DNA of 64,000 nucleotides, from positions 28,306,956-28,370,955 of the forward strand of contig OZ024879.1 in assembly GCA_964017185.1 (NCBI GenBank). The letters run 5' to 3'. Made by a program: the position numbers and the translations under genes. Positions 2,321-64,000 of the stretch are shown here, piece by piece. The stretch's first letter is position 1. Each line of letters begins with the position of its first letter. The notes under the pieces are model-generated. The model was given only the letters and a program-made list of their open reading frames with translations. It was not told where the DNA came from and did not search any database. This stretch comes from Rugalucina vietnamica (lineage: Eukaryota; Mollusca; Bivalvia; Lucinida; Lucinidae).

Positions 2321-3139
2321 AACATTACTTATTTTGATTAAATTTCTCACAAGTTATCAACAAAATCCTGCAACAATAATTAAGGATTGAAACTGACCAT
2401 CATTAGCTATTGCTACATAACATTTCTACTAGTCTACAATTAACAAAGAAATGACCATAACAGATACATGTTCTGTGAAAAAGGTACCTTGCAAAATGGT
2501 TTGTTCTACTCCCTGTAGATGCTACATCAATTTCAGCCAATCTCGGAATTGTTATACCATAAATCTATTATGCAGGCAACAATAGTGGTTATTTGGGAAA
2601 AGAAAACAATGGAAAAGTGCAAAGAAATTCCATTTGTTTAGTCATCTCTTGAGTTTCCTAAAAGTCTGAAGCTTATAAAGTACCTAAATATATCCTCTTT
2701 ATGAGTAAAAAAAGCCAAATCAAAGTATCTGGTGACCTTTGGGCAAGGTTAAAGCCAAAACTAACATTTCATAACCTTTTGACATCATAAATCAGTCAAA
2801 CATATCGGACAAACTGATCATGACTTGAGAGTCAATTTATAAGAAAAACCAAAATCTGCTAATCTTGAAAAATCACTTTCCAAATACCCGAATTTCTTGG
2901 TTAAAATAGCAAGGGCTAATATCATTTTTTTAATTAAGTTGGTCAAACAAGTGTTGAACCAATACATTTTAGTAGAAAAGGAGAAAATCAATGAAGAGAA
3001 GTTTCCAATTGCTCTTATTGATACAAAATCATTTTGTCTTATATATATTTGATCAATTTCAAAAGATTTATAATGGCAAATAAAATATAAAGGTTTGATC
3101 CTTTGGAAGCAGTAAAAAACATTCAAAGGGAGATAGTAT

Positions 3140-3185
3140 GGACTATATTGCGCAATTTCGGGTAATGAACCCTCGTCAGTAGCCC
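3140..3185 (-). ncRNA. Hammerhead ribozyme 1
   Basis: Reading the minus strand: stem I 5' side GGGCUA, core CUGACGA, stem II GGGU/ACCC with loop UCAUU, core GAAA, stem III AUUGC/GCAAU with no extra loop, cleavage triplet AUA, stem I 3' side UAGUCC. All core nucleotides of the hammerhead are present and stem I pairs at every position with one G-U. The predicted cut lies between plus-strand 3145 and 3146. Outer complementarity (AGAGGG with CUCCC) would extend stem I past an internal loop, as in natural fast hammerheads. Confidence 0.88.
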
Positions 3186-3520
3186 TCTTTAAACTGGCAA
3201 CGAACGCCAGTCTGCGACTATAATTGTGCTGCAATTTCGAGAATTTACACGAGGAGTCTAAATCAAAGACATATTCCTAAATTGGGTCAATAATTAAAAA
3301 AATTGCTTAGAAGTATGTTTCTAAACGTGAGTGTTTTGAACACTCTGACTATCTTTACCGATCTCAAAGGACCAAAATAAAATATAATCTGCACTATGGA
3401 TGATGTACGGGGCGACTTTTTACGGCCGTCACACGGCACAACACCAGCTGCAGTAATAGCAAATAAAATATAAAGGTTTGATCCTTTGGAAGCAGTAAAA
3501 CATTCAAAGGGAGATAGTAT

Positions 3521-3566
3521 GGACTATATTGCGCAATTTCGGGTAATGAACCCTCGTCAGTAGCCC
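3521..3566 (-). ncRNA. Hammerhead ribozyme 2
   Basis: This is the second unit of the 383-bp array, and its 46-nt core is identical to ribozyme 1 (CUGACGA, GGGU/ACCC, GAAA, AUUGC/GCAAU, GGGCUA/UAGUCC). The sequence between ribozymes differs by small indels, so the core is better kept than its flanks. Confidence 0.88.
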
Positions 3567-4009
3567 TCTTTAAATCGGCAACGAACGCCAGACTATAATT
3601 GTGCTGCAATTTCGAGAATTTACACGAGGAGTCTAAATCAAAGACATATTCCTAAATTGGGTCAATAATTAAAAAAAATGCTTAGAAGTATGTTTCTAAA
3701 CGTGAGTGTTTTGAACACTCTGAATATCTTTACCGATCTCAAAGGACCGAAATAAAATATAATCTGCACTATGGATGATGAAGCAGGTTTCAAAATATAG
3801 ATTTGCCCTTTACCTCTAAAATAGGGGAATCTGTAGTAAATACATGTACATGCAATTAGATTTGTTCCTGTCAGAATGAGCATAAATTTAGGCATCTTAC
3901 AGGCCTGATTTCGGGCTCAGGACCTTAGGGGTGGCCATTTTCTCCAAACTGCATTGCAAGGTTTGGCTCGGGACCTTAGGGGTGCCCATTTTCTCCAAGA
4001 TGCAAGGTT

Positions 4010-9249: not shown

Positions 9250-12200
9250 AATACCCCCCCCCAGGGGGAATTTTCTACACTATGATTTTCTAAAAGTACA
9301 TTGAAAAAGCTATCAAACCCTGTTTTCTGCCATCTGGAAGTGGAAGCGTTTGCGTTTTATGCTATGTTTCATTATATTACCCTAAATATTCATTTTTTGC
9401 GTTTTAATAATGGGGGTACACATAGAAAACTGAAAATATCTCAGTTGTTTCTTACCCTAGACCATTGGACTTGGTGTCATTTTAATGCTTATACATAGCC
9501 CTTTTATCTAATAATAAGTAATGGAAAATATCTAATTTGCTTATTCATGAATTTTCATTAAAACATTAAAATGAAAAACGAAACATTTAAAAATTAATTA
9601 TCCCCGTTAAAACTAATTTCAGGCCTAAACTATCATTGTGGTTCATTGTTATTGTACCAATAATACTATTTGACAAATTTGTTGACGCCATGGACCTTAA
9701 TGAAAATTTTCTCATTTGCATTGTCATGAATATTAATGAAAATGACGAAAATCAAAATTTACTCTATTGCCATTTAAGGGTTTGACTGGGTTGTAAGATG
9801 TACCTTGCAACCTTAGACCAAATGCTCATGGGTGCCAATTTGGTCAGAGGATCACTTTAAGTCCATTTGAGTGATCACCCCCACCCCTAATAAGCAGAGG
9901 AATTAATGTGGTACACCTCTATTACCACATGCATCTTGGCTACTGATAGACATAGAGAGCTGAAATAGGTATCAAATGATTGCTTTGGCAATGTTTTATA
10001 ATCATGTAATAAGATATATAAACAACTGGCTATCTTAATGCTCAAATATTAAAAAGAAGTTCAGATATTAGAAAAGAAACAGATAAAGGAAGGGGGTATA
10101 CCAAACAAAATTGCTAATATCTCAGTGACCAAAAATTCTATTAGAGCTGAAACGTGTATCAAATGATTGTTGTAATAATGTTCTATAATCATGTGATAAG
10201 ATACAGAAAGAATCTGACTTTCTTGATGTTCAAAATTAAAATTGATAAGAACTTTCAATAGAAGAGAAAAATCACAGAACATTGGAGGGGGTATACCTAC
10301 AGATACATGTATGTTTATATCTTGGCAACCAAAAGCCATAGAGAGCTGAAACTTATAACAAATGATTGCTATGGTAACATTCTAAAACCCTGAAATAAGA
10401 TACATTTACAATCAGACTTTTCTGCTGTTTGACTTTTGATGAAATCAATAAATATAGTAGAAAAATCACAGAAATTAGAGGGGGTATACCTATGGAAATA
10501 TTTATATCTCAGCAACCAAAAGCCATAAAGAGGAATAAATGGTGTCAAATAATTGCGTTGACAATATTCTATAACCTTATAATAAGATATATAAACAAGC
10601 TGACTTTTTTGTTGCTCAAATATTTAAGAAAACTTAAGATATAAGAGAAAAATCACAGCCAAAGGAAGGGGTTATGCCAATGAAATTGCTATTATCTCAG
10701 TGACCAATCGCTCTAGAGAGTTAAAATTGGTATCAGAATGATTGGTATGATAATGTTCTATAATTGTGTGATTAGACATATGAATAATCTAACTTTCTTG
10801 TTGTTCGAATATTGATGAGAACTTTAAATATTAGATAAAAAGCAAAGAAAAATGGAGGGGGTATACCAATATAAACGTTTATATCTCAGCAACCAAATGT
10901 CCTAGAGTGCTAAAATGGGTATCAATTGATATTTTGACAATATTCTATAACCATGTAATAAGATATATAAACAAGCTTACTTTCTTGTTGCTCATATATT
11001 TAAGAAAACATAAGATATAGCAGAAAAATCACTGCCAAAGGAAGGAGGTATGCCAATGAAATTGCTAATATCTCAGTGACCAATAGTTTTAGAGAGCTGA
11101 AATTGGTATCAAATGATTGGTATGATAATGTTCTATAATCATATGATAAGACATATAAATAATAGAACTTTTTTGTTGTTCAAATATTGATGAGAACTTT
11201 GAATATTAGATAAAACTCAATGAAAAACGGAGGGGGTATACCAATGTAAACGTTAATATCTCGGCAACCCAATGTCATAGAGAGCTGAAATTGGTATCAA
11301 ATGATTGCTATGACAATATTCTACAATCATGTAATAAAATATATTATAAAACAAGCTTACTTTCATGTTGCTCAAATATTTAAGAAAACATAAGTTATAG
11401 CAGAAAAATCACTGCCAAAGGAAGGAGGTATACCAGTAAAATTGCTGATATCTCGGTGACCAAGAGCTCTAGAGAGCTGAAATTGGTATCAAATCATTGC
11501 TAGGACTATGTTTTGTAACCATGTGGTAAGAAACACAAACATTCTGACTTTCTTGTTTTTCGAATATTGATAAAACTTTAAATTTAAGGGAAAAATCAAA
11601 GAAAAATGGAGGGGGTATACCAATGGAAAGGTTAATAACTCAGCAACCAAAAGCTCTAGAGAGCTGAAATTGGTATCAAATGATTGCTATGATAATGTTT
11701 TATAATCATATAATATGATTAATGAATAATTAGACTTTCTTATTGTTCTAATATTGACAAGAACTTTAAAAATTAGATAAAAAAAAAAAACAGAAAAATA
11801 GAGGGGGTATACCATCGGAAACGTTTATATCTCAACAGCAAAAAAAACTAGAGAGCTGAAATTGGTATCAAATGATAGATATGACAATAATTTATGATTA
11901 TATAATAAGATATAGGAAAATGTTGACTATCTTGTGGCCAAAATTTAAGAAAACTTTAGATATCAGAGAAAAACATAGACAAATGAAGGGAATATACCAA
12001 TAGAATTGACAGTATTTCAGCAAACAAAAGCTCTAGAGAACTGAAATTGGTATCAATTGATTGATAGGATCATATTCTATACACAAAAATATGAAAATAA
12101 CAGAAATAATCAGATACAAGTCATTCTGTAGGTATACCAGTTCATTTTTTCATTATTTCTCTGAGATTTCTAGTTTTCATTAATATTCATGAAAAAATAG

Positions 12201-14275: not shown

Positions 14276-16431
14276 AGCTCACCTGAGCCGAAGGCTCACA
14301 AGGTGAGCTTATAGGATGGCCATGATCCGGCGTCCGTCCGTCGTCCGTCCGTCGTCGTCGTCGTCGTCCACAATTTCAAAGATCTTCTTCTCTGAAACCG
14401 CTTGGCCGATCTAGTTGAAATTTTATGTGGAGCCTCCTTGGGTAGTGGCATTTCAAGTTTGATCGCGAAACCGAGGTCACATGACCAAGATGGCCGCCAC
14501 GCCCATATATGGTAAAAACCCTTCAAAAATCTTCTTCTCCAGAACCGGTGGGCCGATTTCCACGAAACTTGGTATGTAGCATCAGGGACTTCAGCCCATC
14601 ATAGTTTGATAAAATGATGACCCTTGGATGACCTTAACCTGTTTTACGGCAAGGTCAAATTTGGAAACATAGGCTTTTACATGGGAAAAAGTGAAAACTA
14701 TGGATTTTTTGAAAACTATTGCAGCCTGAGGCCTGAAAAGTGGTAGATGCAAACAACTAATGGAGTAGATGGAGTTATGTGATTAATTTAGGTCAAGGTC
14801 ATCTCTTGACCTTGGCCAGTCTGTCGTCCATTCACACTCTTCAAAGATCTTCTTCTCTGAAACTGCTGGGCCAATCGAAGTGAAATTTTATGTGGAGCAT
14901 CCATGGGTAGGGGAGACGAAAGTTTGATTGCGAAATCCAGGTCACATGACCAAGATGGCTGCCACGCCCATATATGGTAAAAACCACTCAAAAATCTTCT
15001 TCTCCAGAACCGGCAGGCCCATTGTCATGAAACTTGGTATGTAGCATTTGGGACTCCAGCCCATCATAGTTTGATAAAATGATGACCCTTGGATGACCTT
15101 GACCTAATTTACGGCAAGGTCAATTTTGGAAACATAGGCTTTAACATGGGAAAAAGTGAAAACTATGGATTTTTTTGAAAACTATTGCAGCCTGATGCCT
15201 GAAAAGTGGTATATGCAAACAACTAATGGAGTAGATGAAGGTATGTGATTAATGTAGGTCAAGGTCATCTCTTGACCTTGGCCAGTCTGTCGTCCATACA
15301 CACTTTTCGAAGATCTTCTTCTCTGAAACTGCTGGGCCAATCAAAGTGAAATTTTATGTGGAGCATCCATGGGTAGGGGAGACAAAAGTTTAATCGCGAA
15401 ATCCAGGTCACATGACCAAGATGGCTGCCACGCCCATATATGGTAAAAACCACTCAAAGATTTTCTTCTCCAGAACCGGTGGGCCGATTTCCACGAAACT
15501 TGGTATGTAGCATCCGGGACTTCAGCCCATCATAGTTTGATAAAATGATGACCCTTGGATGACCTTGACCTAATTTACGGCAAGGTCAAATTTGAAAACA
15601 TAGGCTTTTACATGGGAAAAAGTGAAAACTATGGATTTTTTGAAAACTATTGCAGCCTGATGCCTGAAAAGTGGTAGATATGCAAACAACTTATGGAATA
15701 GATGAAGGTATGTGATTAATGTAGGTCAAGGTCATCTCTTGACCTTGGCCAGTCTGTTGTCCATACACACTTTTCAAAGATCTTCTTCTCTGAAACTGCT
15801 GGGCCAATCAAAGTGAAATTTTATGTGGAGCATCCATGGGTAGGAGAGATGAAAGTTTGATCGCGAAATCCAGGTCACATTACCAAGATGGCCGCCACGC
15901 CCATATATGGTAAAAACCACTCAAAAATTTTCTTCTCCAGAACCGGCAGGCCAATTTTCGCGAAACTTGGTATGTAGCATTTGGGACTCCAGCCCATCCT
16001 AGTTTGATCAAATGATGACCATAGGATGACCTTGACCTATTTTACGGCAAGGTCAATTTTGGAAACATAGGCTTTTACATGGGAAAAGGCGGAAACAATG
16101 GATATTTTGGAAACTGTTGCAGTCTGAGACCTGGAAGTTGCTAGATGCAGACAACCAATGGAGTCGATGAAGGTAAGTAATTAATGAAGGCCAAGGTCAT
16201 TTCTTGACCTTGACCCAAAGTCATTTAAATATCAAAATTAAAATTGTGGTTTTCTCATAAATCACTGGGTTTGGAAACTACTGCAGCCTGAGACCTGAAA
16301 CTTTGCAGATGCAGACAACTTATGAATTCAATAAAGGTGTGTGAGTATTCAAGGTCAAGGTCATTTCATGATGACTTAATACTGCAGGATCAGGCTTCAG
16401 GTGAGCGTTCTCAGGACCAATGGTCCTCTGG
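14276..16431 (+). mobile_element. Hairpin-ended element AGCTCACCTGAGCC...CTGG, long copy with 466-bp tandem units
   Basis: The 5' end can fold: AGCTCACCT (14276) with AGGTGAGCT (14301). The 3' end carries AGGACC/GGTCCT (16413-16427) followed at once by CTGG and T. The interior is about four units of 466-467 bp; GGTCAAGGTCATCTCTTGAC falls at 14791, 15257 and 15724. Terminal hairpin plus CTRR followed by T resembles the 3' end of Helitrons, but no replication protein or helicase is present. The family is very common in bivalves as I recall. Other copies: 18757-19300 (full-length, short), 5' ends at 30916 and 40901, 3' ends near 34003 and 34173, and weaker traces near 7345 and 57763. Confidence 0.65.
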
Positions 16432-32285: not shown

Positions 32286-32327
32286 CAGGAACAATTCAAG
32301 GCACCTACTTTTTAGAGAATGTAGCAA

Positions 32328-33718
32328 ATGACATTAGATCTTGAAAGTTTGGGAAGCAGCGTGCAAAATGTCCAAGCTTTTAATTCCACTTCTAGGTACC
32401 TCGATGACCTTTTGAACATTGACAACCCTTATTTTGAAGGTATGGTCAATCAAATTTATCCACCTGAACTACAGTTGAACAAAGCCAGTATCTCGGATAC
32501 CGAAGCTCCCTTTTTAGATCTACATCTTTCTGTTGCAAATGGATTTGTTTCTTCTAAAATTTATGATAAGCGCGATGACATTGATTTTGATATAGAAAAC
32601 TTTCCGTTTTTGGATGGTGACGTTCCTCGCCGTGCTTCTTATGGCGTATACATTTCGCAACTTATTAGGTTTGCTAGAGTCTGCAATAATGTTACAGACT
32701 TCAACTCTCGAAATAAATGTTTAACAGCCAAACTTCTCCAACAGGGCTATCGGTATCATAAACTTCGAAAAACCTTTTCTAAATTTTATCGTAGACACTA
32801 TGAATTGATTTCCAAATATAATGTTGGGTTAAAGACGCTTTTAAATGAGGCCCTTTCGGAATCAGAATTTTATGGTGACTTGGTTTACAAATTCAAGAAA
32901 CTTATAGGAAGTAATGATTTTTCTTTTCAGTTTAGAAAAATCATAACACGTTACAGACGTATAGGTTATAACTTGAATGTTATTCGACAGTCTGCATGCT
33001 TAGTTTTTAACCCAATCATGGTTGAAAACTACGCTGCCTTCTTTAATTGCACGCCGGTGGGTCGGGCGTCAGACTCTATGATGGCCGTGACTTAAAGCTA
33101 TTCATTTAATTGGTTGGGGCCGGAGCTTCTTGTCTGTTGCTTGGCCCACCGGGGTCCAACTGATGTTTTTCTTTTGCTCCGGAGTTAGTAAGTTATTCGG
33201 CGCCCAGGGATCTCCATCGTCGGGCAGCTTACTGAATCTGTGAGTCCTGGTTTTTGATTCATCAGGATGTTTATCATGATTTAATTGTTTGTTCTTGATG
33301 ATTCATTGACTAGTTAGAGATTCACCACGAGGACCGAAGAACTAACTAAATGTTATGAACCACTGCAGAAGCTGAGGGTGAGGTTACGGCCGTGTAAAAT
33401 CGATTTAAGCCCGCCAGTAACATTTTGTTACTGATCGTTCCAAGTCGATACTTCTGTGGTGGTTCTTTTTGTTTTATGTCTTGGTGTTTAATATTTTTGT
33501 GCTGTTGGCGCCTTATGTCTGTTTTCATATTTTTAGTTAAAGTAACTGATTGGCCACCTATTGGGAAAATAACTGCTCATTCGGCTTACGAAATGTTTTC
33601 GTGGTATACATACCTGATTGTTAGTTTGTTTTTTTCCCACCTCGGATTTTTGGAGTGGGAATCTTTTGCTGATTGCGCCTTTTCCTGATCTTTGCCTACT
33701 TGTACCTTTTAATAACAT
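32328..33718 (+). pseudogene. Reverse transcriptase element with YLDD motif, 5'-truncated
   Basis: The 255-codon frame at 32328-33095 starts within the palm domain: STSRYLDDLLNIDN (catalytic Asp pair), then APFLDLHLSVANGFVSSKIYDKRDD, RRASYGVYISQLIRFARVC and KKIITRYRRIGYN-like segments, ending CTPVGRASDSMMA. The first part of the reverse transcriptase (fingers and the first catalytic Asp) is absent. The LDLHLSV...SSKIYDKRDD step resembles Penelope-like and related enzymes, but no GIY-YIG nuclease follows; the group is left open. A GC-rich 3' region (GGGGCCGGAGC..., CCCACCGGGGTCC) runs to TTTGCCTACTTGTACC at 33711. Truncation of the 5' end fits target-primed reverse transcription. The first about 18 codons of the frame are probably not part of the element. 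Confidence 0.7.
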
Positions 33719-34186: not shown

Positions 34187-34281
34187 AGAATGCTTCTCCG
34201 TGCAAATGTCTGGGAGCGAAATGGAATCAATAAAAATAATTGTTAGATCCTTTGGAAGCAGTAAAACATTCAAAGCGAGAT

Positions 34282-34327
34282 GGGCCATATTGTACAATTT
34301 CGGGTAATGAACCTTCATCAGTGACCC
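34282..34327 (-). ncRNA. Hammerhead ribozyme 3
   Basis: Minus strand: GGGUCA, CUGAUGA, AGGU-UCAUU-ACCC, GAAA, UUGU/ACAA extended by A-U, cleavage triplet AUA, UGGCCC. Relative to ribozyme 1, stem III changes C-G to U-A and stem I changes U-A to C-G, both keeping the pairing. Stem II has an A-C mismatch at its base. Confidence 0.85.
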
Positions 34328-34665
34328 TTTACAAACCTGGCAGTGAAAGCCAGACATTTTTGCTGTAATTTCAATAATTTACATCTGTGTAGTCTAAATC
34401 AAAGACTCATACATGTAATCCCAAAGGGGCCAAATAATTAAAATACGGTTAAGAAGATGATTCTTAACGAACAATATGCAGTATTTGAAATACTCCAAAT
34501 ATATTCACTGATCCCAAAGGATCAAAAGAAAAATATAATCTGCACTATGGATGATGTACGGGGAGACTTTTTAGGGCCGCCACACGGCACAACACCAGCT
34601 GCAGTAATAGCAAATAAAAATAATTGTTAGATCCTTTGGAAGCAGTAAAACATTCAAAGCGAGAT

Positions 34666-34711
34666 GGGCCATATTGTACAATTTCGGGTAATGAACCTTC
34701 ATCAGTGACCC
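34666..34711 (-). ncRNA. Hammerhead ribozyme 4
   Basis: Identical 46-nt core to ribozyme 3, exactly 384 bp further on. Confidence 0.85.
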
Positions 34712-35049
34712 TTTACAAACCTGGCAGTGAAAGCCAGACATTTTTGCTGTAATTTCAATAATTTACATCTGTGTAGTCTAAATCAAAGACTCATACATGT
34801 AATCCCAAAGGGGCCAAATAATCAAAATACGGTTAAGAAGATGATTCTTAACGAACAATATGCAGTATTTGAAATACTCCAAATATATTCACTGATCCCA
34901 AAGGATCAAAAGAAAAATATAATCTGCACTATGGATGATGTACGGGGAGACTTTTTAGGGCCGCCACACGGCACAACACCAGCTGCAGTAATAGCAAATA
35001 AAAATAATTGTTAGATCCTTTGGAAGCAGTAAAACATTCAAAGCGAGAT

Positions 35050-35095
35050 GGGCCATATTGTACAATTTCGGGTAATGAACCTTCATCAGTGACCC
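35050..35095 (-). ncRNA. Hammerhead ribozyme 5
   Basis: Identical core to ribozymes 3 and 4, 384 bp further on, in the last and incomplete unit, 94 bp before the LINE junction. Confidence 0.85.
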
Positions 35096-35188
35096 TTTAC
35101 AAACCTGGCAGTGAAAGCCAGACATTTTTGCTGTAATTTCAATAATTTACATCTGTGTAGTCTAAATCAAAGACTCATACATGTAATC

Positions 35189-35827
35189 CTTGACACCAAG
35201 CTGAAAGTCTACAAGGCTGTGGTACTGCCAACCCTCTTGTATGCATGTGAGACCTGGACAGTATACCAACGCCATGCAAAGAGACTTAACCATTTTCACT
35301 TAAGCTGTTTGAGAAAGTTGTTCAAAATCAAGTGGCAGGACAAGATTCCAGACACAGAGGTCCTGAGGAAAGCAGGGATGCAAAGCATGCATACAGTCTT
35401 AAAGCTAGCACAGCTAAGATGGACTGGCCATGTTATAAGAATGCCTGATGCGCGACTTCCAAAGAAAGTTTTCTATGGAGAACTACAGGAGGGAAGGCGC
35501 TCTCAAGGTGGCCAGAAGAAACGCTACAAAGACACCCTCAAAGCCTCTCTGAAGGATTTCGAAATACCAATGGGGTCCTGGGAACAGACTGCACAGGAGC
35601 GATCAAAGTGGCGAGGTCTCATCAACAAAGGAGCAGCTCTCTATGAAAAGAAGAGAATCTGTGAAGCTGAAAGAAAGCGAAGAGAGCGCAAAGCCAAAAC
35701 AAATGTGCCACCAGCAGACTCTATGACATTGACTTGCTCTACTTGCAACCGACAGTTTAGAGCCAGAATTGGCCTAGTCAGCCATCAAACAACTCATCAA
35801 CACACATCAGCACTATTCAAGAAATAA
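35189..35827 (+). pseudogene. Non-LTR retrotransposon (LINE) reverse transcriptase, C-terminal fragment
   Basis: About 212 codons encode the part after the palm domain: LKVYKAVVLPTLLYACETW, HLSCLRKLFKIKWQDKIPD, LRWTGHVIRMPD, GRRSQGGQKKRYKDTLKASL, a basic stretch (EAERKRRERKAK) and a final C2H2 finger CSTCNRQF...GLVSHQTTH. This order (thumb, WTGHVxRM, GRRxxGGQxxRYKDxLK, terminal zinc finger) is typical of one group of animal LINEs. Endonuclease and palm domains are absent because of truncation. The frame stays open across the junction with the hammerhead repeat, so the track start at 35111 is not the real protein start. Confidence 0.8.
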
Positions 35828-38139: not shown

Positions 38140-40254
38140 TAATAAATCATAAGCTTGGACGTTTGCATACAACTTGCCAACAAACATTTGAAACACGTGT
38201 CTCATTTGAAACACGTGTCTGAGGAGTTTGTCGTCAAAGAACTCAATCACTTAAACTCTTATAAAAGCACTGGCTTAGATGAAATTCCAGCAAAATTCTT
38301 AAAAGAAGGGGCTTCCTTCCTAAAATTACCTGTCACGTTTCTTGTGAACATGTCAATTTCAGATAACTGAGTGCCAGATGCTATGAAAATTGCTAGGGTC
38401 AAGCCGTTGTATAAGAAAAATAGTAATTTGGATGTTGGCAATTATAGACCGGTGAGCATTTTGAGTGTTGTTTCAAAAATTCTTGAAAAGGCTATTTATA
38501 TACAGCTTGAAGCATATTTGGTAAAAAATAATATTATATATAATTACCAGTCTGGGTTTAGAAGTTCATTCTCTACAGACACCTGTCTCATTTATTTGTT
38601 AGATCATATTAAAATGAAAAATGCAGAAGGTCTGTACACGGGTATGATCTTGTTAGACCTGCAAAAGGCCTTCGACACAGTCGACCATAAAATACTGTGC
38701 AATAAATTGCAACTTATGGGTATACGATCAACTAAATGGTTTGAATCTTACCTTGGTAACAGAAGTCAGTTAGTCAATATTGGTAAAGTTCACTCAGATA
38801 CTGCAGCTGTAACTTGTGGTGTTCCCCAAGGGAGTATTTTAGGACCTCTGTTGTTTTTATGCTATGTTAATGACATGGTGATAAGTGTTGACCCTGACTG
38901 CAAACTGTTACTGTATGCTGATGACAGTACAATCCTTTTTTCACATAGAGATCCAGATCAGATTGCAAGCAAATTAAGTAAAGTTCTTGAATCTTGTTCT
39001 GAGTGGCTAGTTGACAACAAACTATCTTTACACCTGGGCAAAACTGAATGTATACTATTCGGGTCAAAGAGAAAATTTAAGAAAATCAAGGAATTCAAAG
39101 CCAAGTGCAACGATCACGTGATTGAACATACGACATCTGTGAAATACTTAGGTCTGAATATTGACAATCTTTTGTCAGGAGACCTTATAGCTAAAAACAT
39201 ACTCTCCAAGGTTAATGCTCGTTTGAAGTTTATGTATCGTCATAGTTCCAGTCTATCCTCAAGGACCAGAAAAAACTTATGTTCAGCCCTGATCTTGTGT
39301 CACTTTGACTATACGTGTTCGTCTTGGTATGCAGGTCTAACCAAAGACCTAAAGAAAAAGTTACAAATTGCACAAAACAAAGTTATCAGATTCATCAACT
39401 TCCTGGGACCCCGAACAAGGATAACCGCTGATATTTTTGCGGATTCGAACTTGCTCAATGTTGAAACTAGGGTTAAACAGTTGAGACTAAATCATGTGCA
39501 CAAAATTGTCTACAGCTTATGTCCTACATATATGAAGGAGAATTTTGTTCCTCTTAGTGAAGTCCATCAGCATAATACACGGTCTAGAGGATATAATTTT
39601 TCAATTCCTCTGTGTAGAAGTGTTGACAACACGACTTTTTATCATACAGGTATTAAAGATTGGAATTCTCTTCCGCAATGGTTGAAAGAGCAAGAAAAAC
39701 CTCAACGATTCAAACAATCTTTAAAAAAGTTTTTAATTGAGCAATTCCGTGAAACTGAGCAAAACGATGTTTTGTTTTATTGATGTGCTGGAAATTCTTT
39801 CAGTTTCAACAGTTTTCGCTGTACTTGTCTGTTTGCTCGTAGTTATAATATGTTATAATATCTGTAAATGTGATATATAGAAGTCAAGAGCACCCTTAGC
39901 TTTGATTGATAACTTGAACTTGTGTGCAATATTATCCTGCCTCTCCCGTGCCAACATTTTCTTCTTTTTTTTGCAAATGGACCCCATTGGAAATAAGCCT
40001 TATGGCTTTATGGGCTATCCATAGGTCTTAAGATCATACATTTCAATCTGCGTTAAGTGGACATAGGTGCTGGCATCTCATTCCACTATTTGATTTAACC
40101 AAAACTGTTATTAATCATGCAAGTGTGCTCTTAATTGATTAGTAAATGAGTATTTACACATATATATATTCAAAACATAATTGTACATATGACCTTATTG
40201 CCTGAATTAATCATATCTTATCTTATCTTATCTTATCTTATCTTATCTTATCAG
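38140..40254 (+). pseudogene. Non-LTR retrotransposon (LINE) with TTATC tail, reverse transcriptase region
   Basis: The open frame 38371-39783 (470 codons) reads YRPVSILSVVSKILEKA, LLDLQKAFDTVDH (first catalytic Asp), GVPQGSILGPLLF and LLLYADDST (catalytic pair), then a thumb and a C-terminal region (VKYLGLNID, HNTRSRGYNF, WNSLPQWL). The same frame continues upstream to 38155 (KSTGLDEIPAKFLKEGA) across a single TGA at 38368-38370. The endonuclease part is not found, and a 17-bp direct duplication (CATTTGAAACACGTGTC type) lies near 38190. After the stop at 39781 a 430-bp 3' region ends in about eight copies of TTATC (40214-40252), as in CR1/Jockey-group elements. Clade is tentative. Confidence 0.85.
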
Positions 40255-40900: not shown

Positions 40901-41075
40901 AGCTCACCTGAGCCGAAGTCTCACAAGGTGAGCTTATAGGGTTGGGTCAATTAGCCATCTGAGAATTTTTAGGGCCGTCACACGGCACAACCACATGATA
41001 TAAAAAGGTACAAGTAGGCAACGATCAGGAATAGGCGCAATCAGTAAAAAATCCCACTCTAAAAACCGAAGTACA
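40901..41075. mobile_element. Nested fragments: hairpin-element 5' end, hammerhead-unit piece, YLDD 3' end
   Basis: AGCTCACCTGAGCCGAAG (40901) is followed by a 25-bp match to the hammerhead unit (TTTTAGGGCCGTCACACGG, 40967-40991) and by GGTACAAGTAGGCAACGATC (41007-41072), a minus-strand end of the YLDD element. Three families are joined within 175 bp. Confidence 0.6.
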
Positions 41076-41956
41076 AACCGGTTGCAAGCTAGAATTAATG
41101 TGCACTTGGCCAGCACAAAAGACAGTTTGAACTTTTAAACCCTGATTCAAGGAATAAATGCGCGCTTTGAAGTTCAAACCTAGGTGACAAAAACTGTATG
41201 TACACTTGGCTTGCTATAACCCTCATCTGCAATTAATAAGATGTATATCGGAAACAACCACGTTCGTTTGAACGGCCTGTCTATAAGCTTGGTACTTCAG
41301 ACTCTGTTTTGTGTCTTGTTAGTTCGCTATTCCTTCATGTACTGTAATCAATGGCAAATAATGCATTACCTTGCATTACTTTTTTCAGTGAAAATTACCG
41401 TCTACACTAAAAAATTATACTGATCTATAAATTATAGACAAGATCGATTACTGCCTTTATTGTGAAAGATCATACGCTTCTAAAATAGTTGCCATTATGC
41501 GAATGTTCACACAGACGAGCATGATGTCAAGAAGGCACTACTCCACCCTAAGGGCACAAACGAAAGAAATCACGCCCTTAGATTGATCGAATATAAAGCG
41601 AATTTCTGTCATAATGTGAAGGTTTGTAAAATATCCCGTTATCAGTAGTTTCAACTTCCTAAGTTCCATTATGTTAACAAATCAAAAAGGAATTGGCTTA
41701 AAAATATCCAAAAGGCATAACAAATGAACGTTCAGCTCGTTGTGCACATTAAATCTTAAGTAGAAGGCTATCTTGAAGAAAGAAGTAATTTACACATAAT
41801 AAGACCCAGCCTACAACTAGCAAACCGGTTTAATTATTTATATCTGTCCTTTTAGATCAGTAAGAAAATTTAGAGTATCAAAAATTGTACGTATAGAGCC
41901 ATCTTCTAAGCAATGTTTCAATTGTATGTATCTGGCTATCGTCGCCGGTAAATAAA

Positions 41957-42055
41957 GGGCCACTGATGAGGGTTTAATACCCGAAATTGCGCAATACAAC
42001 CTCCGTTTGAACGTTTCACTGCTCCCAAAGGATCAAACGTTTATATGTTATTTGA
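41957..42055 (+). ncRNA. Hammerhead ribozyme 6, solitary and partly decayed
   Basis: Plus strand: CTGATGA (41963-41969), stem II GGGT-TTAAT-ACCC, GAAA, stem III ATTGC/GCAAT, then ATA at the cleavage site. The core, stem II and stem III are complete. Stem I is not: GGGCCA faces CAACCT, which pairs poorly. The unit tail (TTTCACTGCTCCCAAAGGATC) confirms the repeat family. This copy probably cleaves weakly or not at all. Confidence 0.65.
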
Positions 42056-42281
42056 TATGAAACTAATTTTATCATTGATTTTTCATAGCCAGTTTTTATT
42101 TACGAGTATGTGTTCTTAAATTGAAACAATAGACTTGCCAACAGTGTCGCTAAATCAAGTGAATACTGAACAGGGAATTGTGGCATTATGCGGGGAAGAA
42201 TATTTCCGTTTGCCGTTCTGATGTACGCAAAATTCACATTGAATAATACAACAGATTTATATCAACATCTTGTTTTTACAG

Positions 42282-46574: not shown

Positions 46575-49500
46575 TCAGTTATTGTCATTGTCGGTATTCT
46601 TTACTTGCTGTTGAATGAGTTTCATGGCTCGAACCGCAGCTTGTCTTTGTGGCCGGTTTCTTCCCTCCCGGTCACTGCATCCAGGATCGTTTGTAGTAGA
46701 TGCATCATTCGTACTCTGTTCTTCATCTGAGATCTCGACAGGGTACAACAGATTCAGCGGACGGCCTATTACTCTCCTGGTTGGTAATAGGACCTTTGCC
46801 GAACGCACCTGTTCATCACCACCTTTTATGAGTTCTATGATTTTTCCAAGCTTCCAGCATCCCCGAGGTAGGTCCTCTTTAATGAGTACTATGTGACCAA
46901 CCTTTGCTGAGCATGATGTATGTATTCTCTGGGTTTTTAGTTTATTTTGAGTTCTTTCTCTCAAGCTTAACAAGTAATTGTCTCTCCACACTTGCCAGAA
47001 TCTGTTCAGATGTCTTAATCCTTTTTTCCAAGACTCAATCAGGGTAATGGCAGTGCTCATAGTTGGTGTAAACTCTTCATCACCACTGTCCTCATGAGTG
47101 AAGTTTGGGAAGCCAGTCTTGGGATTAAAGGATACGAAGTGAGCTGGGGTAAGTGCCGTTCCTGAGTTTATGTCTTCTCCTATATATACCAGCGGACGTG
47201 AATTGACGATGGCTTCAGATTCTTTTATCACTGTCAGTAATTGTTCACTGGTCAGACATAGTTTGCCAATTGTCTTGCGTAATGACCTTTTTACTAGCCC
47301 TATTAATCTTTCATAAAATCCCCCCATCCATGGTGCTAATTCCACGATGAATTTCCACCTGATTCTTTCTGTTACTGAATATGATATCACGTCTGGTTCC
47401 ACTAGAATCTGACCCCAAATCTTGTCCATTGTATCTGCCGCGAGTTTGAACTAGGGAGCGTTGTCTGATATTATACTGCGAGGGCTCCCATGTCTAGCAA
47501 CAAATCTTCTCAGGCCTAGTAGAAACTGTTCTGTTGTCATATCTTTCATTAGCTCAAGGTGAATTGCTCTTGTTGATAGACAGGTATACAGACAGATCCA
47601 AACCTTCTGTGGTTCAGGAGATTGTTTTATATACAGTGGGCCAAAATAGTCTATCCCGCAGTGAGCAAAGGGGACAGCTTCATTCACACGTTCACTAGGA
47701 AGTGGTGGCATTGTTGGCATTTTATAAGGACCACCCTCCCAACGTCTACAGATTGTACAATGTTTCAATACCCTTTTGACAGCTCAGCGACCTTGTGGTA
47801 TCCAGAATCTGTGCCTTGCCTGTGCCAATGTCTGTGCTACTCCACAGTGGTTGGATTTTCTATGAATATGATCAATCAACAGTTCTGTTAGCCTGTCTTC
47901 CTTAAATAACAACACAGGGTGTTTGGTTTCATTGTTCATGTTTGAGTGTTCCAGTCTCCCATGACATCTCAGTATTCCCTCCTCGTCAACATAAACACCC
48001 AGCTGTGTCATTAAATTGTTTGGTTTATTTTCTTGTATTGACTTGTATATGCTACTGTAATGTTGCCTTTGAACACATTTTATCCAGAGTTGTTCTGCTT
48101 GTTCTATTTCAGATGTCTGTATTGGACCTTTTGCAGTTTCTTCATGCTTCAGTCTGTTGATGAATCTACAAACTAGTACTGTCACTCTAAGCAGCGTTGT
48201 CAGAGAGGAATATCTACCTATATCCATTCCAAATGGGCCATTGTTGATGTGGGTGATCTCAGCTGTTGGAAGCTCATCTCCTCCTTCCAGTAGTGTCGCC
48301 TCATACATCACAGATGGAGTTTAAGCATCTTGAGTGGTGTTATTTTCACTCCATACTTTCCACTCATGAGTTGGTCCAAGTAGCTGATCTGGTCCATGCC
48401 ACCAGAGATTACTTTCAAGAAGATCACTGATGCTGCTGCCTCTACTTGCTAGATCTGCTGGGTTGTCCTTAGAAGGGATGTCGTGGAAGGCAATGTTGTC
48501 ATGTTTTCTGATTTCTGCTAGCCTATTTTCAACAAATCTGGATGAGTGTTTTCCATTTGCGATCCAGTTCAGAACACACTGGGAGTCAGACCAAAGATGT
48601 TTCTGTTCAAGATCCAATCGTAGATGTTGTGCCACAAACTGGATAGCTCTTGTTCCAATGAGAGCTGCAAGCAGCTCGAGTCGTGGAATACTGACAGGTT
48701 TCTGTGGGGCTAGACGAAGTTTTGAAAACACCAGATCAGTCCTACTTTGGTCACCTTTCCTTTGAAGTAGGTACACCACTGCAGCATACGCATTCTTTGA
48801 AGCATCGCAGAAGCCAAGCAAGTGATGAGAGACCAGATCATTTTTACCCTCTTTCAGTCCAATGTATCTTGGAAATTGGCATGTTTTCAGTTTTTTCAGT
48901 TCGGACTTGATTGTTTCCCATTCAATTTTGTCTTCAGAGGACACGCTTTCATCCCAGTCTAGTTTCTTGATCCATAAGTCTTGTAAGAATAATTTTCCCT
49001 TTAATGTAACAGGACTGAAGATTCCTAGTGGGTCAAATACAGATGCTATCTGTTTCAAAACTTCCCGTTTTGTAAGTGTCTGACCAAGGTTTATACCACT
49101 TATTGATAATTGATCATCATTGATTGTCCATGTCAGTCCTAGCACGTTCATCTGCTCACCTGATGACCTGTCATGTTCATGTATCTCTTCTACTACCGCC
49201 CTATCATTTGATGCCCAGTCCCTTAAATTCATACTAACCTTACTCATTATTTCTTTACTCTCTCTGTAGAACTCGGTGGCCTTTTGTGTTGATGTTGTAC
49301 CAGTTATTACATTATCTACATAGATGTTTTCTCTAATTCTTTCAGCTGTCTCTGATTTATAGGTTTTTAGATGAAAGTCAAGTGTTGCAGCTAGTAAAAA
49401 TGGACTAGAGATGACACAGAAGGGAACCCTGCAGAACCGGAATGTTTGTGTATTGTTTTCAGTACGCAGGATATTTGAATCTTTCAAACAGAAGAATCTC

Positions 49501-52061
49501 GTGACATTTTTGGCATTGTCATTCAGTCCTATTTGAAGAAAAGCTTTTTCAATATCAGCAACCATGGCTACTTTATTCATTCGAAATCGAAGCAGTATTC
49601 CCGTCAAATCTTGTAACATAACAGGGCCACGGTAGAGACATTCATTCAGGCTTTTATTGTCTTGTTTGGTCTTTGCCGATGCATCATAAACAACTCTTAC
49701 CTTGGTTGTTGGTTTGGATAAATTTATCACAGGATGGTGGGGTATGTAGTGTTTCTTGTCATCTGTCGGCTCTGGCTGTACCTTTTCAATGACACCACGA
49801 TCAAGCCGGTCCTGTATAATGCTGTCATATTGGTTCACCATGTCAGGGTTGTTTCTCAGTTTGTGAATGAGTGATTTTAGCCTCCCGAATGCCAGCTCTC
49901 TGTTTTCTGGCAAGCAAGGTATGTCATCTTTCCATGGCCAGCTTACGTGATATCTCCCCGCTTCGTACCTTAATGTTTCATGGAATGTTTTTAGCGCCTC
50001 ATTGTCTTGGAGATCTTCGGGTGAATCATTGATTCCAATTGTCTCAAGGTTCCAGAAGTCTTCGAGACTTGGTTTCATAGGTAAATGTTTGTCTGTATTT
50101 GTGAAAATTTTTGTTTCTCTTTCAATGTCAGTTCCATGTGTTAAGACCAACATACTAGATTCCTGTGTTTTTACTGTATTTTCAGATGTACGTCCTGATA
50201 GTAACCATCCTAGTTTTGATTCTAACAGATACAGGCCTGGTTGAACTTCCACTTTTTTCGAAAGAATTAAATCTAGGTAGTAGTCATTACCAACAAGAAT
50301 GTCAATAGTGGAACTTTCTCTTTGACATGGTAATGTGTCCGCCAAATCAAATTGGTTTAGAAATCTATCACCTTTCTGTAGAGAGGCTGCGTGTATAGGG
50401 CCTCGATATACATCTCCTGTTATACTTGGGACCACGTTTGCATGTATTTGTAGAGAATGTCCATTTCTTAGAGTAATGTTCACTTTTGTAGATGGAGACT
50501 TGATCTTTTGTGTCACAAGAGTTATTTCACTTGGTTCCCCCATTTTTAGACCTAGTGCTTTAGCCAGGCTCTCAGTTATGTACGTTCTCTGACTTCCTGT
50601 GTCTAAAAGCAGGCGTATAGTTTGATGCACATTTTTCATAGGATTGCTTACCCTGGTCTTTGCTGTCTGCATCAAAACCGATTCTCCAGATGACAGTAGA
50701 ACATTTTCTGTAACATCTTGCTCTTCGTCGTGGAGAACTTCCTCAACCAAATTGGCACTCTCTTTCATGAATTCTCTGGTTGGACTAAATTCTTGTGGGC
50801 ACAGGCTCCTATGATGGTTGTTTGTCTTATGGCAGTAGTAACAGGCTTTTGTCAATGTACAGTCATTGGTTTTATGTCCTTGTTTGAGGCAAATATAGCA
50901 GCTACCTTTGATTCTCTGTTTCCTTGCTTCAACAGTTGGATAATTTTGGCACTCATCATTCCAGTGTTTACCCTTGCAATATCGACAAGCTATTGATGGT
51001 TTACGTCTATCAAACTGACGAGATTGGATCCTTGGAGCTGCCATTAATGCCTCTGTAGAAAATCTGAGTGGTGATGGTGTTGTATACCCACTCGCTGAAT
51101 TTCCGTTTCCGATATGTTCTTCAGCCTTTTCCCTTGCAGAGATGTAGTCATTAAAAAGTTCTCTTAACTTGCTCACAGTCCACATCACTTTTGCACCTTT
51201 CTGTATCTCTAACTGAACAAGGACTTCTTTTGGAATTTTTGAAGTAATGATAGATATAAATACCTCTTGATTTATATTCTGTTTCAGGGCTTCCAGACTT
51301 CTTAAATGTTTCTCAGCCTCATCATAAAGCATTCTCAGTCCTTTGGAAGTGTTATTTGCTGGTGGAACATTTATCAACTCCGTGTAATGACAGTTTATCA
51401 CACTTTGTTTATCTCCAAACCGGTCTTTCAGTAAGTTGACTGCAACTGAGTAATTTTCGTTTGAAAGCAGAATTCCCGATACCGCATCCTTTGCTTTTCC
51501 TGTCAGTTTGCTGTTAAGGTAGTGCAATTTCTCTATGTCTGACAAGGTAGGATTTTGATGTATAGTAGCCTCAAATGTGTCCCAAAACTCTGTCCATCTC
51601 AACTTGTCTCCATTAAATATAGGAATGTCTAGTTTGGGAAGTTTTATTGAAGCATGTTGTTGACTTATCTTCAATTGTTGCATGTGACTTTGTATTTGGC
51701 TCATTTCAGTATAAGCTTCAGCTCCTGCAGATAAGGAATGTGTCATTGTGGAGAGGTCTTCCAAAGATTTATGAAAGTTTTCTAATTCACCACGACATCC
51801 ATATGCTAACTCCATTAGGTCGCTATCTTCACTCATTAACTGCTCGAGTTCATCTGGCTTTTCTTTTGAAATTCTTTCGTCTATACAATCAAGCTTGTCA
51901 ACCCATTCATTCAGTCTTTTAATGCAGGTTTCCACTTTATTAGAAAGAACTTTAACGTCAAGCTCCCTCACATCTGCATCTAGTAGTCCTTTACCAGTAG
52001 CAATCTCTTTGTCAAGTAGGTTTCTGTATAGAGTTCTATTTCTCTTTAAGTACAAAGACAT
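46575..52061 (-). pseudogene. BEL/Pao gag-pol polyprotein with three in-frame stops
   Basis: The ATG at 52061 (MSLYLKRNRT) is preferred over one at 52127, which lies within the LTR. Order: helical gag (DUF1759 type), three zinc knuckles from about residue 358 (CRYCKGKHWNDEC first), retropepsin LLLDTGSQ with the Asp near residue 487, reverse transcriptase (VVYDASAK, VADIEKAFLQIGL, YVDN near 915), RNase H (FCDASKNAYAA), integrase zinc region (HRKSNHCG, CTICRRW), integrase core (GIDYFGPL, SDNAP, then GGFYERLIG) and the C-terminal DUF5641-type region. The whole is a single frame interrupted by stops at 48321-48323, 47784-47786 and 47451-47453, with no frameshift. The gag-to-RNase H part alone is 1,246 residues. 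YVDN in place of YVDD is common in this superfamily. Function is lost at least for integrase. Confidence 0.92.
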
Positions 52062-52119
52062 CTTGGAATTTATTCTCTTGTCCCTGGTGATGATATGTAA
52101 AGGGTTCCGGCGCCAATTA

Positions 52120-52578
52120 TGTGGCAAACTTCATATAACAATACAATGTTAGTTTCTTACTGTCTATAATCCACATAAATTACAGCACATATAAATGTTA
52201 TATCATGAATACTTATCAGTATCTTTCAATATCTGTTCATTAATTGTAGTAATGTCTGTGTTGTTCCCTCTAATTGTAGTGTTCCAAATGTAGTTTATCA
52301 CTATAAATGTCTTTCCTCTAATTGTAGTCTACAAATTGTATTAATTGTCTATTTTTCTTATTATAGTTACTCCATGACTTTTTCTGTGTTACTAACGTCA
52401 AAGTTACTTCACTACGACTTCAACGTCACGACGTTGACGTCAGATGCCTTAATATACTTAATGTTCTTAAAACTAACCAAATGTTCCTAAAATTACTTGT
52501 AAAATGAAAATAGTTATATAAATATTTGTAAACTTAATAATTAAACTGTTCAATACAATTTGTGGTATTTCCACAACA
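52120..52578 (-). repeat. 5' LTR of the BEL/Pao element
   Basis: 459 bp, nearly identical to the left LTR. The GACGTC dyad carries one mismatch here (CGACTTCAACG). It would contain the promoter on the minus strand. Confidence 0.92.
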
Positions 52579-60102: not shown

Positions 60103-60208
60103 CATAGCTGGTTTTCTATGATCCTGTGATACGAACCCACATCTCGGTCACATTAAGCATTGGTTAGAAGACCTCTGAAGTAGACTTTAATCACGTGCAA
60201 AAAGAATC

Positions 60209-62302: not shown

Positions 62303-62335
62303 AAAGGACCGACTGGGATGGTCGGCAGGCGGTCC
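62293..62335 (+). promoter_or_regulatory. -1 ribosomal frameshift signal between gag and pol
   Basis: T-TTA-AAC at 62293-62299 is in the correct phase of the gag frame (X-XXY-YYZ) and is followed at once by the gag stop TAG. After a 6-nt spacer, GGACC (62306-62310) pairs with GGTCC (62331-62335) and GAC with GTC inside it; an alternative CCGAC/GTCGG hairpin is also possible. The -1 frame from CTA at 62299 is open to the window end. Confidence 0.8.
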
Positions 62336-64000
62336 CTAAACAAAATGGCCAAAACAATGATTTTTCAGTTTGTGAGCTCCAAGCCGGCTGTGAAACTGTG
62401 TCTGATCATAACCCCGCTACCGAGGTTAAACAGCTCTCACGGGGTGGAGCAAGAAAAAATCTGAGCAGTACAGAATCCCCCGGCTTTCAGTCTCAACCAG
62501 ATGGTCAGGTGAAAGCTTCACTGTGTAACCTAACTTCTAAACAGTCCAGCGGAAACCTAAGGAATAAATTACCTTTTTCTGACTCTAAATCTGGACAAAG
62601 CATGGAAGATATGATAAGTCAAGTGTCACAGCTGGTTGGCTCACAAAATGAAAGATCTAACACACATTGCCCAGGAATGAATCCTAAATGTTTGAATGCC
62701 CCGCAGATGGAGAGTGTACAAATTTCAAACCCCAAGAGCTCCCTCAGTTCTGGTCAAAGACCAGATACACAGAGGTCTGAGACCACCAGTCCAAAACCAC
62801 CCCATATTTTAGAAAATGCCACGCTCTCAACCGAACAGACACAGGTGCATTCTCTGCTGCCAGACAGTCCAAACCCCCAGTCTTCCCAAGGGACCTCACA
62901 CTTGAATCCCGAGTCTGTGGACCCTATGATAAAACGAATTGCCACAAGTAATGGCTTTTATATAAAAGCCTCAATTGAGGGAGTTGACATGACCTTTACC
63001 ATAGATACAGGGGCCACGAAGACAGTTATTTCTGAGAGGGTTTACAATGCCATTCCAAAATCCCAAAGGCCCACTTTAAAGCCCACTAATGGCTTGACTG
63101 ATGCCACTGGTCAACCCTTGCCACAATTAGGTACAGCAGTATTCAGAATAAGGCTAGCCCCAGAATTGAACTTTGAAAGTGATATCATTGTTGCAAACAT
63201 TGAGGATGATGGCCTTCTTGGGCATGACCTTTTGACCTTTGGCCGAGCCCATTTGTTATATGATGAAGATGTTCTTCAATTTATGGGTGTGAAACTAAAT
63301 TGCATGAGAGTGGGCACTTCCCCTAGAGTAAGACAATTATTCGCTGCCGACCATTTTATCATTCCGGGGTACTGTGAAAAGGTCATTGATGTTTATGTAC
63401 AGCGATGCCAGCAGGATGACAATTCCAATGGCACCGTTCTATTAGAACCTAGTTTAGAGTTTATGGAGAGGTATGGTCTGATCATGGCAGCAAGTCTAAG
63501 CGACTTAAATTCTAGAGTTACCCACAAAGTCAGAATATTGAACCCCAACCAGTTTGAGGTTCATATCAATCAAGATGTCAAACTAGGCACTGCTGAAAAT
63601 GTGAGTGAAATTGTTAGTCTGATACAGGAAGAAAACTGTAGCCATGAAAAATCACACCATGCCTCCCCATGTCATGACACCCCAGACTCCGAGGCTTTAC
63701 ACTGTCAAAGCCAAGGCAAAGTGCCGCCTGAGCAATACAATAAAACCCAGAAAACCCAAATACATGTTAGACGTGTTGATGAGATAGTTATGCCCGAGCA
63801 TCTCAAAGAGCTCTATCACTCGGCTATTATAGGGCGGACAGAGCATGAGAAAATTCGGATAGCCCAGACTTTGCTTAACTTTCAAGACACATTTTCAAAG
63901 CATGAATTTGACTTAGGGCTTACAACCCTGATAGAACATACCATTGATGTAGGCAGTCATGGCCCAATTAAGCAAGCCCCAAGGCGGGTTCCGGCGGCAT
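62299..64000 (+). CDS. Ty3/Gypsy Pol, 5' part (protease and start of reverse transcriptase), cut by the window end
   Basis: The frame beginning at the shift site is open for 567 codons to the window edge with no stop. About 215 residues of Ser/Gln/Pro-rich linker come first. The aspartic protease follows (FTIDTGATKTVISERVY, Asp at 63004; flap and LLGHDLL further on). A spacer leads to ELYHSAIIGRTEHE, LLNFQDTFSKHEFDLG and HTIDVGSHGPIKQAPRR, the usual entry into the reverse transcriptase. The palm, RNase H, integrase and 3' LTR lie beyond 64000. The linker between Gag and protease is unusually long. Confidence 0.88.

Follow-up and report, generated by a model that had tools for sequence, protein, structure and literature searches.

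The 64,000-nt stretch of the Rugalucina vietnamica genome analysed here (hereafter the window) contains copies of a metazoan non-LTR retrozyme, an element of a known kind, and the dispersed copies of this family end, in the ribozyme sense, at one fixed position and begin at many. The evidence points, with a probability that we put near 0.6, to a non-LTR retrozyme copied from a circular or multimeric RNA template, with Penelope-type initiation at an internal UUAUU and a conserved linker as signal.

A retrozyme family in the window and in the genome

The hammerhead core consists of CUGANGA, GAAA and UH, arranged with stems I to III, and in type I hammerheads stem I is open. A preliminary description of this DNA had placed two such ribozymes on the minus strand of a 383-bp tandem repeat, and every type I core element is indeed present in both units of this array, here called array A (Table 1): CUGACGA, stem II GGGU/ACCC, GAAA, UUGCGCAA, AUA and a 6-bp stem I GGGCUA/UAGUCC, with the predicted cut of the first unit where it had been proposed. 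The repeat length of 383 bp is correct at the left end of the array, whereas the cut-to-cut distance is 381 nt and other parts are spaced by 381 and 375 nt, a variation that is due to indels. Array B, with three hammerheads in units near-identical to one another, and the single copy C had been overlooked. Weak similarity extends upstream of copy C, from 41847, and the hammerhead of this copy is probably dead. A strict descriptor detects five sites in the window, all of the retrozyme family, and none in 100 Markov-shuffled windows; with a looser pattern there are 12 matches, 6 of them of the retrozyme family, against an expectation of 3.84.

Table 1. Retrozyme copies, their parts and the interrupted LINE frame, in window coordinates
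Feature	Position	Strand	Remarks
Retrozyme array A	3071..3780	-	1.86 units, subfamily A
Array A ends, ribozyme sense	5′ end 3780; 3′ end near 3077	-	flank similarity to 3071
Type I hammerhead, array A downstream unit	3140..3185	-	predicted cut 3146/3145
Type I hammerhead, array A upstream unit	3521..3566	-	predicted cut 3527/3526
Conserved linker, array A (between units)	3385..3459	-	
Retrozyme array B	34229..35189	-	2.5 units of 384 nt, subfamily B; interrupts LINE frame
Type I hammerhead, array B	34282..34327	-	predicted cut 34288/34287
Type I hammerhead, array B	34666..34711	-	predicted cut 34672/34671
Type I hammerhead, array B	35050..35095	-	predicted cut 35056/35055
Conserved linker, array B	34536..34610	-	
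Conserved linker, array B	34920..34994	-	
LINE frame, C-terminal part, split by array B	35190..35827	+	
Lone linker piece, 31 nt	40961..40991	-	93.5% identity; no adjoining retrozyme unit
Copy C, single diverged retrozyme	41931..42058	+	5′-truncated, usual 3′ end
Copy C hammerhead	41957..42002	+	stem I broken beside core, GGGCCA/CAACCU

The family is abundant. A 27-nt core pattern occurs 5,392 times in the genome to which the window belongs (1.09 Gb, 47 contigs), and its reversed control not at all; the whole-genome counts are complete for each pattern, and the individual loci described below come from the first 100 places listed for a pattern. GC content is 0.384 and 0.367 in the two subfamilies, the longest stop-free runs are 76 and 101 codons even when the unit is tripled, and no LTRs were seen in the flanks of the measured arrays. 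Type I hammerheads in tandem units within the range of about 150-450 bp, from dimers upwards, with low GC content, no coding capacity, no LTR and dispersed retrotransposed copies, are what characterises metazoan non-LTR retrozymes, and all of these are observed here. The assignment to this class made in the preliminary description is thus supported by unit length, type I hammerheads, thousands of copies, low GC content and the lack of a long frame.

The closest description is that of the retrozymes of Mytilus galloprovincialis, which are also short, non-coding tandem type I hammerhead units of low GC content, with about 350-390 bp, some 5000 copies and two ribozyme families, and for which circles of whole units are documented (PMC7229834); the units here measure 381-384 nt, with 5,392 cores and at least two subfamilies, a likeness of description and not of sequence. 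Release of monomers and circular RNA may be predicted from this published family. The text of the same paper gives neither a fixed 3′ end, nor a target motif, nor a conserved linker for the mussel elements. Plant LTR retrozymes are likewise non-coding hammerhead elements thought to spread via circular RNA, but unlike the present family they have type III hammerheads, LTRs, a primer-binding site and 4-bp target duplications (PMC4918200, PMC7229834). Amphibian satellite retrozymes share with the copies described here a very short stem III with a palindromic loop and perform best as dimers; they differ in their 330-350 bp units and in being far more numerous (126,247 motifs in axolotl) (PMC7229834). 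One long array outside the window (L062) represents a third, diverged subfamily with a unit of about 376 nt, about 66% identical overall and more than 90% identical in the linker.

Hammerhead stems and their probable action in pairs

The stems are kept by compensatory change. The set analysed comprises 37 sequences, 35 of them distinct, taken from the window and from fetched loci; in it 91.6% of stem cells are paired, against 26-43% when the partners are slid. The covariation score is 0.208, compared with 0.154 ± 0.010 for shuffled sets and reached by none of 500 shuffles, and changes on both sides of a pair affect 25 cells, against a shuffled mean of 10.5; pairs showing double changes (3) and additional pair types (14) are no more numerous than in shuffles. 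Compensatory changes are found from CG to UA in stem I (10 cells) and from UA to CG in stem III (13 cells). The invariance of CUGANGA and GAAA is no proof on its own, as the cores were selected by pattern. The first pair of stem II is absent in 17 of the 35 distinct cores, where it is mostly A-C. By core and stems, the sites of the window are type I hammerheads.

A covariance search against Rfam had been named beforehand as a check, and its outcome was the one that the preliminary description had set against its own reading: no significant match to the window copies. Nothing reached gathering in the whole window, and 1.1-kb and 1.6-kb stretches gave no hammerhead at E≤10; with a 76-nt query, the RAGATH-1-hammerhead model aligned to the core at 12.6 bits and E 4.9, its gathering score being 56.3. 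The search is insensitive here, because two clear phage hammerheads serving as positive control also fall below gathering, one of them being missed even at E≤10.

Stem III is short and palindromic, either UUGCGCAA or UUGUACAA. The loopless 5-bp stem III proposed earlier is unable to close within one molecule; stem III instead has either 3 bp closed by a tetraloop or the form of a palindromic helix common to two molecules. The one-molecule hammerhead fold (3 bp plus tetraloop) is not optimal (-6.8 versus -9.8 kcal/mol), and a 106-nt stretch is no more stable than its shuffles (z -0.60). A pair of subfamily-A cores folds into an exact double hammerhead in which both share a stem III of 10 bp (-33.5 kcal/mol); with two subfamily-B cores, stems I and III form and stem II is different (-29.2 kcal/mol). 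Since dimeric action is known for amphibian retrozymes (PMC7229834), the short palindromic stem III and these predicted dimer folds make such action likely, and the hammerheads most likely act as pairs with a common palindromic stem III.

The core pattern was also searched for in a viral collection of 2.9 million contigs, where it occurs in only two contigs, both phage-like (L049, 11330-11356, minus; L050, 1633-1659, plus). These are apparent type I hammerheads with the triplet AUA and, read by eye, a stem I of 6 perfect pairs and a stem III that is closed; they are the two phage hammerheads used above as positive control for Rfam. No match to the linker was found in the viral contigs, no similarity was found with the phage records, and the core pattern has no match in the genome contig collection. 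We read the two viral hits as independent phage hammerheads, unrelated to the retrozyme outside the core.

Copies share their 3′ end and differ in their 5′ end

The extent of the copies was measured for arrays on one contig (C1; 48 of 83 hand-made clusters from the 100 places listed) and for the three copies of the window, all chosen by an intact core except copy C. Read in the ribozyme sense, 50 of 55 extents stop between unit positions 375 and 384 or no more than 12 nt past them. After realignment to the nearer subfamily, which left out L002, L009, L017 and the first L024 array (3′ ends elsewhere), 47 of 50 3′ ends map, relative to the end of TTATTTG, to the interval from -4 to +12, and 31 of 50 to -2 or -1; a literal TTATT terminates 40 of 49 arrays. 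This fixed end is 59 nt (subfamily B) or 67 nt (subfamily A) downstream of the ribozyme cut. The 5′ ends, by comparison, are scattered from unit position 55 to 372, and array length ranges from 107 to 1859 nt, or 0.28 to 4.8 units, with more than one unit in 19 of 49 (one array, L039b, is not part of these 49-array counts).

Ends within 5 nt of the ribozyme cut are found for 0 of 49 3′ ends and 1 of 49 5′ ends. Cut monomers copied over their whole length would both start and stop at the cut, unlike nearly all the ends observed, which suggests that most copies were made from circular RNA or from multimers left uncut. To look for run-off of the enzyme at the ribozyme cut, short copies were surveyed among tail-bearing places without an exact core, 20 of which were hand-picked from 26 among 100 tail matches listed; 8 of the 20 have element sequence past the fetched stretch, and the starts of the other 12 range from -35 to +22 relative to the cut, within 4 nt of it in 4 of 12 and exactly there in none. 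No published account of such an insertion anatomy, with a fixed 3′ end, variable 5′ ends, absent or tiny target duplications, a preferred target and a conserved block next to the fixed end, was found in the main texts of the open-access literature. One retrozyme (L029, about 2151-2576) directly abuts an inverted neighbour copy on one side, the tails face to face, and has a second inverted stretch on its other side.

Insertion sites

Empty sites were identified by comparing flanks with uninterrupted copies of the repeats into which the retrozyme had inserted. Nine were usable; L029, with its inverted neighbour, and L031, in a simple repeat, were among the 11 compared rows and are not counted as empty sites. 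None of the nine shows an unambiguous target duplication above 2 nt. Direct repeats of at least 6 nt flank only 8 of 54 extents (all 55 apart from L004 831-1021, a piece without ribozyme), and none exceeds 8 nt. A repeat of 6-7 nt is present in L019, L034 and L041, but the overlapping bases are also expected from the element itself. Some target sequence has been lost: about 4 nt at the insertion of array B, compared with three intact LINE copies, and, by eye, about 10 nt in L034. Bases in common between element and target at the 5′ junction amount to 7 nt in L034 and 3 in L014 (by eye). L026 is exceptional: 2 nt are duplicated and 16 nt of filler are present. Where present, target duplications of metazoan retrozymes are larger than 4 bp (PMC7229834), and those of Nematostella retrozymes are 15 bp long (PMC4918200), whereas clear duplication is absent here.

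The target immediately before the 3′ junction is TT in eight of the nine empty sites, the exception being L026 (binomial probability 1.2e-7 if TT has a frequency of 0.105; the measured background is 0.12). Right flanks start with YA in 17 of 40 cases, against 14.7% (P 2e-5), in the 40 of 49 arrays with a literal TTATT. The data favour a target preference TT^YA, both motifs having been discovered and tested in one dataset. No poly(A) or simple repeat is present at the 3′ end, as judged from the array flanks. Annealing of the target to the start of the linker at the 3′ junction was also considered, using 40 of 49 arrays (those 42 with complete tail alignment, minus L025 and L029; L039b again left out), and is not supported: the ungapped score has z 0.58, and the gapped score is above background (0.003), yet equalled by 27 of 500 shuffled motifs.

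A conserved linker next to the fixed end

The most conserved block of the unit, here called the linker, covers unit positions 1-75 and follows the fixed end immediately on its 3′ side. In 12 arrays of 450 nt or more (ten core-selected plus A and B) the linker is 96% identical to the other subfamily (median), compared with 74% for the middle, 80.5% for the ribozyme and 84% for the tail, and it is the best block in 10 of 12. Six further loci (L060-L065) agree on this conservation, with the bias that they were selected by linker. In the whole genome the tail is found 6,054 times, the core 5,392 times and the linker core (at most 2 mismatches) 3,895 times, a gradient that is only suggestive because the patterns differ in stringency. 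The linker is likely a recognition signal for the copying enzyme. In the window, the isolated linker piece on the minus strand lies about 1 kb from copy C.

Newt satellite 2 is the source of the idea that the linker might hold an snRNA-type promoter. This candidate was rejected on the basis of U1 and U5 upstream regions and two of U6. The snRNA genes fetched comprised 5 U1 loci of 24 matches, 4 U5 loci of 37 and 5 U6 loci of 8; nine U1 and U5 upstream regions, on both strands, come no closer to the linker than shuffles do, the closest being matched or bettered by 17 of 200 shuffles, and two U6 upstream regions inspected by eye bear no resemblance to it. Promoters seem absent from retrozymes according to a 2020 review (PMC7761336). 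The U1 genes form a tandem cluster, mostly 1625 bp apart, and the U5 genes a further cluster (G000:C16:684320-702362 and C8:34213751-34251323), and most of the U1 and U5 upstream regions inspected have an ATACAA-like box near -30.

A possible copying mechanism and its rivals

In the model that we favour, tandem units would be transcribed in the ribozyme sense, and paired hammerheads would cut the RNA into units of 381-384 nt that would then be closed into circles, both steps by analogy with the retrozymes already described. An enzyme combining reverse transcriptase and DNA endonuclease, most likely of the Penelope type, would nick a TT^YA-like target, and DNA synthesis would begin at a single position within the RNA, the ...UUAUU that immediately precedes the conserved linker; copying would then proceed round a circle, or through a multimer that has stayed uncut, before coming to a stop. 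Such a course would give the measured outcome, a fixed 3′ end and a variable 5′ end with 0.28 to 4.8 units, the 5′ end being joined to the target without clear duplication, as measured at nine empty sites.

Penelope-type initiation is the favoured reading in view of several likenesses. Penelope-like elements also feature a hammerhead, tandem or partial-tandem copies and AT-rich targets (PMC11167929, PMC3846280), and their reverse transcription begins inside the RNA, downstream of the point where the hammerhead cuts (PMC11167929), as the fixed 3′ ends indicate here too. The enzyme of an Anolis Penelope-like element starts within its RNA 85-92 nt after the hammerhead cut, by the coordinates of the paper, compared with 59-67 nt here; it needs no homology between the RNA and the cut DNA, prefers ATT targets and requires about 55-60 nt of RNA past the start (PMC11167929). 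Insertion of a bdelloid Penelope element produced no duplication and a 5′ junction with microhomology (PMC3846280). The retrozyme differs from Penelope-like elements in having no frame and a canonical rather than minimal hammerhead; as its unit is non-coding, with neither a reverse transcriptase nor a GIY-YIG frame, it is not itself a Penelope-like element. The Discussion of PMC7229834 names LINEs or Penelope-like elements as mobilising metazoan retrozymes, the latter as a strong candidate, and the words "retrozyme" and "circular" are absent from the main text of PMC11167929.

The main rival to Penelope-type initiation has the same retrozyme copied, in a SINE-like manner, by a LINE-type enzyme that recognises the 3′ tail, and we think it unlikely. 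A fixed 3′ end, 5′ truncation and microhomology at 5′ junctions are LINE traits as well, and all three are seen here, the last at some junctions; in addition, LINE frames occur in the window. Elements of the SINE type driven by LINEs, however, have target duplications and an A-rich or simple-repeat tail, a combination not found among 54 extents and nine empty sites: the empty sites lack clear target duplication, the 3′ end lacks poly(A) or a simple repeat, and synthesis would begin within a circular or multimeric RNA instead of at an RNA end. The LINE-like 15-bp duplications of Nematostella repeats (PMC4918200) count in favour of this rival.

Two further explanations were weighed. The fixed 3′ end could be the end of a linear transcript, through termination or processing at UUAUU, with the linker acting as promoter and spacer and multi-unit copies arising by read-through. 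Seven of 49 arrays (WA, L010, L020, L028, L030, L035 and L046) begin near unit position 55-73, just past the linker, as a start site there predicts, and conservation of the linker fits as well; this reading is nevertheless distinctly improbable given the many other positions of 5′ ends, a linker unlike the upstream regions of U1 or U5, and the whole-unit circles documented in the mussel family (PMC7229834). Least probable is an ordinary satellite with a decayed or chance hammerhead that is an RNA element no more. The silence of Rfam on the window copies, the loss of stem I in copy C and the absence of one stem II pair in 17 of 35 distinct cores agree with it, but double changes in stems I and III, thousands of matching cores, a common end point among dispersed copies and the near-identity of the array B units speak against it.

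The published account settles neither the enzyme by which metazoan retrozymes are mobilised nor the way in which a circle is primed (PMC7229834). With about 6,000 tails and 5,400 cores in one genome, the insertion scars are precise enough to test the question of the enzyme, and they show a fixed start, a target motif and an absence of clear duplication, while a conserved block is available for mutation. On the Penelope-type reading one may speculate, with less than even odds, that animal retrozymes are non-coding parasites of Penelope-like elements, in which a linker signal lies 3′ of the start and the hammerhead serves to make the circle that supplies this signal. If so, the linker would be copied only when the enzyme rounds a circular or multimeric RNA; copies of less than one round would lack the linker signal and be dead on arrival, and longer ones could spread. 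The parasite idea is directly testable, since an assay with a Penelope-type protein exists (PMC11167929).

Putative Penelope-like elements of the same genome

Of 451 candidates 150 were scored, and GIY-YIG domains in the same genome are found in open frames of up to 977 aa. One region (C15:425918-437860) has four GIY-YIG domains 3893 bp apart, three of them in 964-aa frames, and between two of the domains (L094, G000:C15:428700-429760) lies a minimal hammerhead with a palindromic stem III, read manually as GCCU-CUGAAGA-AGCCGAAAGGC-GAAA-GCGCGC-UC/AGGC, whose dimer also folds as a double hammerhead. GIY-YIG domains, tandem layout and hammerhead lead us to infer that these elements are Penelope-like. 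The stretch examined, from one element, has no significant similarity to the retrozyme unit. Its matches extend more than 120 nt beyond its cut in 40 of 42 rows, and the sole pile-up of match ends is 227 nt beyond the cut (19 of 41 rows), which may mark only the limit of similarity between subfamilies. The distances of 59-67 nt to the start in the retrozyme and 227 nt to the pile-up disagree, which for this one element tells against a simple partnership.

Other elements in the window

A frame with the motif YLDD (32325-33095, plus) has 8000 relatives, and its copies are the insertion targets of L026. It has no Pfam family, and a PDB search with one relative (P0001) gave weak hits alone, taken as chance; it is perhaps the reverse transcriptase of some element, Penelope-like or other. 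The frame at 38371-39783 (plus) is a reverse transcriptase of LINE type, matching RVT_1 with E 1e-38. Tandem arrays occupy 14374-16212 (466 bp × 3.9), 9951-12081 (187 bp × 11.3) and 987-2314 (47 bp × 27.9), and the 466-bp family is also present at the L019 insertion site and in L043. A set of BEL/Pao-type retrotransposon frames lies at 46575-52130 (minus), and a stretch with gag and aspartyl protease (60191-63999, plus) is interrupted by the end of the window.
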